This document shows, piece by piece, positions 34,844-51,475 of a stretch of DNA of 64,000 nt (position 1 is its first letter; every line of letters begins with the position of its first letter). The position numbers were made by a program, and so were the translations under genes. The stretch covers positions 2,430,669 through 2,494,668 of the forward strand of contig NC_017770.1 in NCBI RefSeq assembly GCF_000242635.2. The letters are read 5' to 3'. The notes beneath the pieces are model-generated. The model was not told the DNA's origin, did no database searches, and saw nothing but the letters and a program-made list of their open reading frames with translations. The DNA comes from Solitalea canadensis DSM 3403. Lineage in GTDB: Bacteria > Bacteroidota > Bacteroidia > Sphingobacteriales > Sphingobacteriaceae.

Positions 34844-34851
34844 TATATTTG
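34844..34851 (+). promoter_or_regulatory. Promoter -7 box TATATTTG of the aminotransferase gene
   Basis: Exact TAnnTTTG. Predicts a transcript start near 34858 and a leader of about 105 bases, the same length as the leader of the ABC ATPase gene that shares the RNA element. Confidence 0.55.
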
Positions 34852-34871
34852 TAATCTAAGGATATTTTAAA

Positions 34872-34955
34872 AACCGGCATGAGTTTTCAACTTACCAATA
34901 ACAATGAAAGTTAGTTAGCCGGTTCTAGATGACCAAATAAAACAAATCAACTTTC
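34872..34955 (+). promoter_or_regulatory. Structured leader RNA with H-type pseudoknot potential, copy 1
   Basis: Stem 1: AACCGGC (34872-34878) with GCCGGTT (34918-34924). Stem 2: GAAAGTT (34906-34912), inside the loop of stem 1, with AACTTTC (34949-34955) downstream. The connecting loop after stem 1 is A-rich (CCAAATAAAACAAA). Stem 2 ends 7 bases before the start codon, so folding could gate translation. The same element with a compensatory change in stem 1 lies at 42585-42668 on the minus strand. Not a class I can name. Confidence 0.65.
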
Positions 34956-34962
34956 AGAAAAA

Positions 34963-36159
34963 ATGAGCGTACAACTGTCAGAGCGTATTAACCGACTTGA
35001 AGAATCTGCCACCATCTTGATGGCAAAAAAAGCACGTGAACTGGCTTCACAAGGTGTTGATGTTATTAATTTAAGCTTGGGTGAACCTGATTTCACTACT
35101 CCAAAACATATTCTTGAAGCAACAAAAACTGCGTTAGATGGTGCTTATACCTTCTACACTCCTGTTGCAGGTTATTTAGACCTTCGTCAGGCAGTTGCCG
35201 CTAAATTAAAGAACGAAAACGGATTGGATTATGCAGCTGACCAGATTGTAGTTTCAACAGGTGCAAAACAATCATTGACTAACGCTGTAATGGCATTGGT
35301 TAACCCAGAAGAAGAAGTAATTATTCCTACTCCATACTGGGTTTCGTATTCTGAAATGGTGAAGCTGGCTGAAGGAGAAAGTGTTTTCATCCCTAGTTCT
35401 GTAGAAAGTAATTTCAAGATCACTCCTGCACAGCTTGAAGCAGCTATCACTCCGAAATCAAAACTATTCATGTTCTCTTCTCCTTGTAACCCAACAGGTT
35501 CGGTTTACACTAAAGAAGAATTGGCTGAATTGGTTAAAGTATTTGAAAAACACCCTCAGATCTATATCATTTCTGATGAGATCTATGAGCATATTAACTT
35601 TGGTGCAGCCCACGCAAGTATTGCTTCTTTTGAGAGCGTAAAAGACCGTGTAATTATTATCAATGGCTTCTCAAAAGGTTTTGCAATGACCGGATGGCGT
35701 TTGGGTTACCTTGCGGCTTCTAAACCAATTGCAGCTGCTTGTGATAAATTGCAAAGTCAGATTACCTCAGCTACTTGCTCTATTGCAAAACGTGCGGCTT
35801 TAGCAGCATTAACCTCTGATATGACTCCTACTTACGAAATGCGCGAAGCATTCCGTAAACGTCGTGATTTGGTTTATAACCTGATTAAAGACATGAAAGG
35901 TTTAAAAGTAAATCTTCCTGAAGGAGCATTTTATTTCTTCCCTGACGTAAGTTATTTCTTCGGAAAGTCTTATGAAGGAAAGGCGATCAATAATTCAAGT
36001 GATTTGAGTTTATTATTGTTAAGCGAAGCTCACGTATCAACTGTTAGTGGCGATTCATTTGGTGATCCGAATTCGATTCGTTTCTCTTATGCTACTTCGG
36101 AAGACAAACTAATTGAAGCAGTTAGACGTATTTCTGCATTTTTAGAAAAAGTGAAATAA
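34963..36159 (+). CDS. aspC: Aspartate aminotransferase (class I PLP aminotransferase)
   Basis: 398 residues. Fold-type I enzyme that moves the amino group between aspartate and 2-oxoglutarate. Seen: INLSLGEPDFTTPKHI, YTFYTPVAGYLDLRQAVA, FSSPCNPTGSVYTKEEL (Asn contact), YIISDEIYEHI, and the PLP-Lys motif INGFSKGFAMTGWRLGY (about residue 236). The C-terminal SGDSFGDPNSIRFSYAT carries the substrate carboxylate-binding Arg. Close to the Bacteroidota/thermophile branch (Iγ), which can also accept prephenate. Preceded by the structured leader and followed by a strong terminator. Confidence 0.92.
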   Translation: MSVQLSERINRLEESATILMAKKARELASQGVDVINLSLGEPDFTTPKHILEATKTALDGAYTFYTPVAGYLDLRQAVAAKLKNENGLDYAADQIVVSTGAKQSLTNAVMALVNPEEEVIIPTPYWVSYSEMVKLAEGESVFIPSSVESNFKITPAQLEAAITPKSKLFMFSSPCNPTGSVYTKEELAELVKVFEKHPQIYIISDEIYEHINFGAAHASIASFESVKDRVIIINGFSKGFAMTGWRLGYLAASKPIAAACDKLQSQITSATCSIAKRAALAALTSDMTPTYEMREAFRKRRDLVYNLIKDMKGLKVNLPEGAFYFFPDVSYFFGKSYEGKAINNSSDLSLLLLSEAHVSTVSGDSFGDPNSIRFSYATSEDKLIEAVRRISAFLEKVK

Positions 36160-41852: not shown

Positions 41853-42575
41853 TTAAAGCATTTCTGCTTCTTTTAATGCGCTGCGGATATTGGTATTCAG
41901 GTAGTCATCTTCAATCAAACCATCGCGCAAACGGATGATACGATGTGCATGTTGAGCAATATCTTCTTCGTGTGTTACCAAAATAATGGTATTTCCTTTT
42001 TTATGGATCTCTTCCATAAGTCCCATTATTTCAATTGAAGTTTTGGTATCAAGGTTACCAGTAGGCTCATCGGCTAAAATAATGGATGGATTGTTAACCA
42101 GCGCTCTGGCTACAGCAACCCTTTGGCGCTGACCACCCGATAATTCGTTAGGCTTATGGTCTACTCGATTACCTAACCCCACTCCTTCTAAAGCTTTGCG
42201 CGCCCGTTCATCACGTTGTTCTTTTTTAACTCCTGCATATACTAATGGGAGTGCAACATTGTCTAGTGAAGATGAACGAGGTAATAAGTTGAAGGTTTGA
42301 AATACGAAACCGATCTCTTTATTTCTTACTTCGGCCAGATCATCATCAGTCATGCGACTTACATCTGTACCATTTAAAATATAAGTACCTTTTGTTGGAG
42401 TATCTAAACAGCCCAAAATATTCATTAACGTTGATTTCCCCGATCCGGAAGGACCCATCAACGCCACAAATTCTCCTTTATTAATGGTTAACGTAACCGA
42501 GTTCAAAGCATGTATGACCTCTGAACCGATCACATATTTCTTACCGATATCCGTAATTGAAATTAAAGCCGACAT
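41853..42575 (-). CDS. ABC transporter ATP-binding protein (LolD/MacB type)
   Basis: 240 residues. Walker [11 protein letters not shown]-loop [13 protein letters not shown] signature [16 protein letters not shown], Walker [13 protein letters not shown]-loop ILVTHEE. Matches the MacB/YknY/LolD group that partners FtsX-type permeases such as the one at 37485. Odd: its ~105-base leader carries the same pseudoknot element as the aspartate aminotransferase gene, while the permease gene does not. Confidence 0.93.
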
Positions 42576-42584
42576 ATTTTTTCT

Positions 42585-42668
42585 GAAAGTTAATGTGTTT
42601 TTTATTGGCCATCAAGAACCCGCTAACTAACTTTCATTCCTACCATCTCATTCAGGCGTAGGCGGGTT
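42585..42668 (-). promoter_or_regulatory. Structured leader RNA with H-type pseudoknot potential, copy 2
   Basis: Read on the minus strand: stem 1 AACCCGC (42668-42662) with GCGGGTT (42623-42617); stem 2 GAAAGTT (42635-42629) with AACTTTC (42591-42585). Compared with copy 1 the middle stem-1 pair changes from G-C to C-G with pairing kept. The loop segments ATGAAAGTTAGTTAGC, GGTTCT-GATG-CCAA and AACTTTCAGAAAAAAT are almost unchanged. An extra CCTAC/GTAGG hairpin can form in the first loop. Confidence 0.65.
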
Positions 42669-51324: not shown

Positions 51325-51475
51325 AGCATTGATCCGAATAATGAGGCAAGTATCCTGACTTATTATAATTGATCGAAATCAATATAAATTACAGTTGCGC
51401 GACAGCCCGTGATTTGCACACGGTTCCTTTTTAATCTGGCATAACAATACCAGAACCACATTATAACAAGATAAA
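51325..51475 (-). promoter_or_regulatory. Cobalamin riboswitch
   Basis: Read on the minus strand: GTGGTTCTGGT and GCCAG arms, then AAAAAGGAACCGTGTGCAAATC and CGGGCTGTCGCGCAACTGTAA, then the B12 box AGTCAGGATACTTGCC with the following CGGATCAATGC and TTTCGCG. These are the conserved core blocks of the adenosylcobalamin riboswitch in order and at normal spacing. Controls genes to its left on the minus strand: PAS, CWC and thioesterase. The ligand is by class; the expression platform is not obvious. Confidence 0.92.

Follow-up and report, generated by a model that had tools for sequence, protein, structure and literature searches.

Two start-codon-proximal pseudoknots of Solitalea canadensis as probable copies of a gene-less insertion element of about 90 nt, widespread in Bacteroidia and possibly guide-directed

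The locus and its two leaders

The window analysed here, a stretch of 64,000 nt of the Solitalea canadensis DSM 3403 genome, holds an aminotransferase class I/II gene (here called aspC) and an ABC-transporter ATPase gene, each directly preceded by a copy of the same folded element (Table 1). Both copies had been recognised in a preliminary description and were recovered with the R3 model of the family at 34872-34965 (+, 91.2 bits) and 42575-42668 (-, 80.9 bits), and no further copy was found in the window with the family model at E ≤ 1. The strands of two helices, S1 and S2, are present in both copies in the order of an H-type pseudoknot, as that description had it, and in copy 1 S2 indeed ends seven bases before the ATG at 34963. 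The exact ends of copy 1 are ambiguous by the A's common to element and target. Inside S1 lies a putative optional hairpin, P2, whose sequence and register differ among copies. Moreover, the statement that the element belongs to no known class has held: in 20 element loci no Rfam 15 family reached the gathering cut-off, other Rfam matches being sub-threshold, and in the open-licence PMC literature we found no description of the element and none combining Sphingobacteriaceae with a pseudoknot. The sole Rfam match in the window is a cobalamin riboswitch (RF00174) at 51328-51475 (-), with 79.4 bits.

Table 1. Coordinates in the window of the two element copies, their parts and the genes that follow them.
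Feature	Position	Strand	Remark
Copy 1, apparent inserted element, about 90 nt	34872..34962	+	directly before the aminotransferase ATG
Copy 1, S1 5' strand AACCGGC	34872..34878	+	sequence, covariation
Copy 1, P2, optional hairpin inside S1, TGAGTT/AACTTA	34880..34894	+	best helix per copy
Copy 1, S2 5' strand TGAAAGTT	34905..34912 (core GAAAGTT 34906-34912)	+	sequence, covariation
Copy 1, S1 3' strand GCCGGTT	34918..34924	+	sequence, covariation
Copy 1, guide-position hexamer TAGATG	34926..34931	+	3 Watson-Crick pairs out of 6 with the 3' end
Copy 1, S2 3' strand AACTTTCA	34949..34956 (core AACTTTC 34949-34955)	+	sequence, covariation
Copy 1, 3'-end hexamer CAGAAA	34955..34960	+	guide partner in relatives
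Aminotransferase class I/II gene (aspC), ATG at 34963	34963..36159	+	PF00155, E 2.5e-72
Copy 2, apparent inserted element	42576..42668	-	directly before the ABC-transporter ATPase gene start
Copy 2, S1 5' strand AACCCGC	42662..42668	-	sequence
Copy 2, S2 5' strand GAAAGTT	42629..42635	-	sequence
Copy 2, S1 3' strand GCGGGTT	42618..42624	-	sequence
Copy 2, S2 3' strand AACTTTC	42585..42591	-	sequence
ABC-transporter ATPase gene, ORF start 42575	41853..42575	-	PF00005, E 3.3e-36

Insertion before existing start codons

The window genome was compared with three genomes of the same genus, G001, G002 and G003 (Solitalea longa). From the motif TATATATTTG (TCTATATTTG in G002), which we take to be a promoter motif of the form TAnnTTTG, the distance to the aspC ATG is 111 nt here versus 20, 21 and 21 nt in G001, G002 and G003, and from TATCTTTGC to the ATG of uvrA, which is preceded by a third near-identical copy (located by pattern search in the single 5.2-Mb contig of the genome), it is 116 nt versus 26 nt in all three. 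In these six comparisons the gain is 90 nt in five and 91 nt in one (aspC, one congener), and the site before the ABC-transporter gene, read from sequence, is likewise empty in the three congeners. Since the flanks are recognisably alike, about 90 nt appear to have been gained in an A-run directly before the start codon; as judged from these sequences, the element has been put into A-runs right before existing start codons in the Solitalea lineage. A folded leader of about 90 nt thereby separates the promoter motif from the ATG at aspC and uvrA and also precedes the ABC gene, and a putative effect of this leader on the translation of the host genes is plausible.

The preliminary description had seen in its two loci a promising candidate for a new cis-regulatory class; such a class tied to these genes finds no support. 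Besides the empty sites in the congeners, none of 80 aspC orthologue loci (the best 80 of 593 aspC relatives, including one, L152, that has 7 nt upstream and is uninformative) carries the element upstream of the gene, and the two matches found in them up to E 1 (0.12 and 0.16) both lie downstream of aspC; a lack of covarying homologues upstream of related genes, which the description itself had named as speaking against its proposal, is thus what was found for aspC. The leaders are almost certainly inserted mobile elements and not an aspC riboswitch. Of note, two insertions are common to G003 and G001, at one place each (L012/L013 and L015/L020), which implies that some copies predate the divergence of the species.

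A dispersed family in Bacteroidia

Six copies were found in the window genome with a covariance model at E ≤ 0.1, three of them weaker; the preliminary description was right about its two loci, and had missed the uvrA copy, the three weaker copies and the insertion nature of the element. The congeners G001, G003 and G002 hold 7, 2 and 0 copies with the R1 model (E ≤ 0.1), which includes one stray base pair that R2 and R3 are without, and at least 10, 4 and 1 with R3 (E ≤ 0.01), the family models having been built from 15 and then 44 copies. The covarying homologues that had been called for were found by covariance-model searches in many species: R3 matches at E ≤ 0.01 occur in 159 of 399 Sphingobacteriaceae genomes and in 16 of 25 genera, and in a class-wide sample of Bacteroidia 28 of 395 genomes match (3 Sphingobacteriaceae and 25 genomes in 16 other families; 16 of the 19 new loci were read), of which about four, mainly the weakest, could be chance at these rough E-values.

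In seven genomes of genus g16, one of them Sphingobacterium multivorum, the 35-nt 3' part of the element has 7-14 places each at up to 3 mismatches, and the reversed-pattern control gave none in the same genomes. Thirty of these 78 places were read as loci: 29 have the whole element, at 88-91 nt, one has a version of 73 nt, and no longer, gene-carrying version was found among them. Two loci of this genus (L173 and L174, in G312 and G373) have an identical element and the same 30 nt upstream, with different downstream hairpins. Across the family, unit lengths range from 80 to 93 nt, plus one of 135 nt, and 21 of 34 are divisible by three. Many copies are single and dispersed, and tandem head-to-tail units also occur, of 87 nt in Desertivirga xinjiangensis (G008) and of 87-90 nt in G010. 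No element match was obtained in the phage, plasmid and viral collections with strict patterns and short BLAST queries; these are weak negatives, because an exact 23-base pattern comes out empty even in the genome contigs. Taken together, the sequences argue that the two leaders are copies of a gene-less insertion family of about 90 nt that is dispersed, sometimes in tandem, in many Bacteroidia.

Helices, covariation and a candidate guide

Between the two window copies, S1 shows a compensating change, from AACCGGC/GCCGGTT to AACCCGC/GCGGGTT. Nearest-neighbour folding is unimpressive for the two copies (z -1.44 and -0.47), with a program that cannot score a pseudoknot. By the main measures, covariation is stronger than in shuffled or slid controls in sets of 15, 44 and 103 copies, although in the smallest set the five pairs changed on both sides are matched by 11 of 500 shuffles and one slid version. 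In 102 distinct rows, S1, S2 and a third helix, P3, have 85.2% of cells paired versus 70.7% in shuffles, 278 two-sided changes versus 95, and a covariation score of 0.383 versus 0.143 shuffled and at most 0.085 with slid partners; the copies were found by models made from earlier copies, in which S1 was modelled as pairs and S2 and P3 as letters only, and S1 is therefore favoured in the pair counts. With 80.9% paired, S2 is the weakest of the three helices.

P3 pairs the hexamer just 3' of S1 with the element's final bases (CATNTG/CANATG or TTTNTG/CANAAA). With 4 of 103 rows omitted for gaps, it has on average 5.04 Watson-Crick pairs of 6, versus 3.80 when the ends are redealt, and none of 2000 shuffles reaches 5.04. 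The CAT type comprises CATCTG/CAGATG (12), CATATG/CATATG (7), CATGTG/CACATG (5) and CATTTG/CAAATG (2), and the TTT type TTTCTG/CAGAAA (20) and TTTGTG/CACAAA (8), many of these counts coming from related copies. In Solitalea, P3 is poorly formed by Watson-Crick count: the guides of the window copies, TAGATG and TTGATG, make 3 and 4 Watson-Crick pairs of 6 with CAGAAA. A TTGATG guide leaves two positions unpaired, GA opposite GA, and such a tandem can be stable. S2 and P3 use the same bases CA and hence cannot both be complete. Covariation supports S1, S2 and the guide/3'-end helix P3. Two variants of the guide region were seen: a copy of 107 nt in G001 (L019, 1501-1607) with an extra hairpin (ATCC..GGAT), and copies of genus g11 (L026 and L187) with TTCAT, out of register, that would pair with the 3'-end ATGAA and may represent a shifted guide.

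The pairs also bear on whether the fold is selected as RNA or as DNA. Relative to column shuffles, with 24 of 103 rows dropped as at least 90% identical to another, Watson-Crick pairs, G-T pairs and other mismatches stand at 1.33, 0.47 and 0.52 of expectation over the helices of the element (S1 inner pairs: 1.72, 0.35 and 0.30; S2: 1.10, 0.68 and 0.80; P3: 1.35, 0.45 and 0.50), whereas 29 tRNAs, mostly of phage T5, give 2.18, 0.49 and 0.06. The lack of any wobble preference over other mismatches fits selection on folded single-stranded DNA, although decaying copies or misalignment could also give it. On balance, we lean slightly towards a single-stranded DNA route of movement.

Insertion sites and junctions

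According to ORF calls, a gene in the same sense starts just downstream of 8 of the first 15 genus copies, and the other 7 follow stop codons, face convergent genes or are antisense between two genes. The genes with copies are unrelated (aminotransferase, ABC ATPase, UvrA, GATase_5, histidine kinase, PhoH and DUF2461). Several copies in G008, G048, g16 and other genomes end, as seen by eye, in the A-run of a terminator-like hairpin, and the A-run insertions have the same orientation. In G008, a tandem array (L044, 27-1391, -) reads as antisense to a lipoprotein-like ORF and overlaps its apparent 5' part, to which it may supply a new N-terminus.

Many relatives are flanked by ATGAAA on both sides, the second ATG often being the start codon. 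ATGAA is part of the end in 45 rows; 35 of them have ATGAAA as left junction, and in 22 an ORF that either reaches at least 80 aa or runs off the contig begins at the terminal ATG, one of these rows (L063) truly lying inside an ORF in another frame. Of the other ATGAAA sites in the same loci, 56 of 484 open such an ORF, in a control whose definition is slightly different, as it also requires an upstream stop within 20 codons. In these sequences, the type of guide goes with the insertion site: in the 79 rows below 90% identity (24 of 103 dropped), the left junction is ATGAAA in 21 of 27 copies with a CAT guide and in 2 of 37 with a TTT or TTG guide (Fisher p 1.4e-9, ignoring descent; 15 rows have other guides), with the left flank outside all models except for two A's belonging to S1. 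This correlation makes the mechanism directly testable. The gain of about 90 nt fits insertion without duplication, but the left and right junctions have A's or ATGAAA in common, so that the ends are ambiguous and a target duplication could also be accommodated.

In-frame copies

In-frame insertion in protein-coding genes was seen in G010 alone, a genome 76% complete, in which the frame is open through the elements in three ORFs. The first, a beta-mannosidase ORF (L072, -), has three in-frame elements and is open over 599 aa. It matches 2vqu with residues 1-170 and 395-585 (262-436 and 574-766 of the chain), and between these stretches it has 224 residues versus 137, an excess of 87; the inserts of 135, 87 and 84 nt correspond to 45, 29 and 28 aa, 102 in total, and all junctions are in one phase. 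Two tandem units, of 87 and 90 nt, lie in a UDP-GlcNAc 2-epimerase-like ORF that the contig end cuts short, and a single 87-nt unit lies in an ORF for an M23 peptidase. Two further copies of this genome (L047 and L065) could extend the N-terminus of a gene. That only part of the units are divisible by three is what one would expect if insertions inside genes persist only when they keep the frame. Translational bypassing of the byp kind, suggested by flanks with repeats of the same codons, is not needed as an explanation, since the frame stays open through the coding inserts that were read.

Proposed mechanism and alternatives

The best explanation overall, to which we give a probability of about 0.68, is a gene-less insertion family of about 90 nt that is guide-directed and moves as folded single-stranded DNA. 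In the mechanism that we propose, the folded single strand would be recognised at its pseudoknot by a small DNA-processing enzyme provided in trans. Two sites would be chosen through base pairing with the internal hexamer, CATNTG or TTTNTG: the 3' cleavage site of the element itself (CANATGAAA or CANAAAA) and the target, which is ATGAAA or an A-run. Insertion would take place 3' of the target, and the element's own end would regenerate ATGAAA or AAAATG. As such a regenerated end leaves the start codon intact, copies at gene starts, in terminator-like A-runs and in frame would be tolerated; the rebuilt start codon and A-run may thus explain why insertion before genes is borne. A role of P3 as a guide in mobility is predicted and seems reasonably probable. 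As a more specific and tentative proposal, this might be an undescribed gene-less element that reads its excision end and its target with its own hexamer, a change from TTTNTG to CATNTG re-aiming it from A-runs to start codons (ATGAAA), and that owes its movement, as folded single-stranded DNA, to an enzyme outside the recognisable Y1 transposases.

The identity of the enzyme is where the first alternative enters, namely that the element is a remnant or satellite of an IS200/IS605 or REP/RAYT system mobilised by an ordinary Y1 transposase. The kept left-flank target, the pairing of guide and cleavage site, the folded ends and the lack of inverted repeats all follow the logic described for IS608 (in the excerpt used of PMC5934647) and for REP (in that of PMC8266576). 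We nevertheless hold this reading to be unlikely: the Y1 transposase family PF01797 has no match at E ≤ 0.001 in five copy-bearing genomes (G001, G008, G032, G010 and G017), four of which are 99-100% complete, yet it is matched in 8 of the 16 genomes searched, among them G002, which has one copy, and G004, which has none; a distant homologue could have escaped this search. Around the 10 of 23 Y1 places that were examined, no element lies within 1.5 kb at E < 0.05, the best match (0.053) being inside a Y1 gene, and the guide is a stretch of 6 nt 3' of S1 and not a tetranucleotide 5' of a hairpin.

The element might otherwise be mobile through RNA, a folded copy with its 3' end on its own guide being reverse transcribed or inserted at A-runs or ATGAAA. 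Such a route would suit the H-type pseudoknot with its A-rich loop, the A-rich 3' end, the insertion into A-runs in one orientation and the precise gain of about 90 nt, but G-T pairs are not favoured over other mismatches as they are in tRNA, and we regard it as quite improbable. Far less likely is that aspC, the ABC transporter and uvrA are controlled by a leader RNA of a new cis-regulatory class, be it a riboswitch or an RNA that binds a protein. A covarying pseudoknot near the start codon, the position of 8 of the first 15 genus copies in sense before a gene and the two copies that G001 and G003 have in common would all agree with it; against it stand the empty sites of the three genes in three congeners, the 80 aspC orthologue loci without an upstream copy, the unrelated host genes and the copies that lie within ORFs, behind stop codons, in tandem arrays or in antisense orientation. 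Lastly, a MITE of a DDE transposon, with inverted repeats and target duplication, can practically be set aside, since the element, short, AT-rich, multi-copy and without a gene as it is, has ends (AAAACC.. and ..CANAAAA or ..CANATGAAA) that on reading the alignments are not mutual inverted repeats, and a guide/end helix that has no role in the DDE model. We thus return to the guide-directed insertion family as the preferred reading.

An apparent riboswitch hence becomes a widespread mobile element, and comparative RNA discovery is warned that insertion can produce covariation beside start codons. Were the guide model true, the family would be a very small natural insertion system in which the site is chosen by base pairing and genes are spared through a rebuilt start codon, and it would extend to Bacteroidia the in-frame selfish inserts known from Rickettsia.

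Relation to known systems

Within the same bacterial family, the Pedo-repair RNA motif of Pedobacter (RF01715) is also a structured motif, and one element copy precedes uvrA; Pedo-repair, however, is a model of 211 positions. It had no match in 61 genomes, in a search where the control genomes were equally silent, so that its absence is not shown. Like MITEs, including BrickBuilt of Porphyromonas gingivalis in the partial account available, the element is small, non-coding, multi-copy and mostly intergenic, but on reading it is without terminal inverted repeats. Two further kinds were considered: type III toxin-antitoxin RNA, a pseudoknot array beside a ToxN-like nuclease gene, which the tandem pseudoknots suggested (many copies of the element are single), and integron attC sites, which go with an integrase gene and R/L core sites.

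Rickettsia palindromic elements are, in the excerpt used of PMC10969869, short repeats lying in frame in unrelated protein-coding genes and giving translational fusions. Unlike these elements of about 150 bp, the one described here has about 90 nt, belongs to another phylum, combines a pseudoknot with a guide/end helix and has many copies exactly at start codons. The REP sequences of REP/RAYT (TnpA-REP) systems, in the part of PMC8266576 used, are likewise short folded repeats at dispersed positions, for which mobilisation in trans is proposed; the present element differs in being absent beside the 10 of 23 Y1 genes examined, in its larger pseudoknot and in its insertion before an ATG or in frame.

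The closest logic is that of the IS200/IS605 family. In IS608, according to the parts used of PMC5934647 and PMC8266576, both the cleavage site and the target are bound through pairing with a guide internal to the element, and the target is retained on the left flank. The element resembles it in its insertion 3' of a short left-flank target, its internal guide, its folded single-stranded ends and its strand specificity, as far as the mechanism proposed above holds. Complementarity of an internal guide to the putative cleavage site and target is found, by sequence, family-wide, and in part (3-4 of 6) in the window copies. Unlike IS608, the element is one pseudoknot of about 90 nt instead of two subterminal hairpins, has a hexamer guide after S1, targets ATGAAA or A-runs and contains no gene. 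Since it shares IS200/IS605-like logic and Y1 is unmatched in five copy-bearing genomes, we class it as probably working like such a system and not as a member of it.
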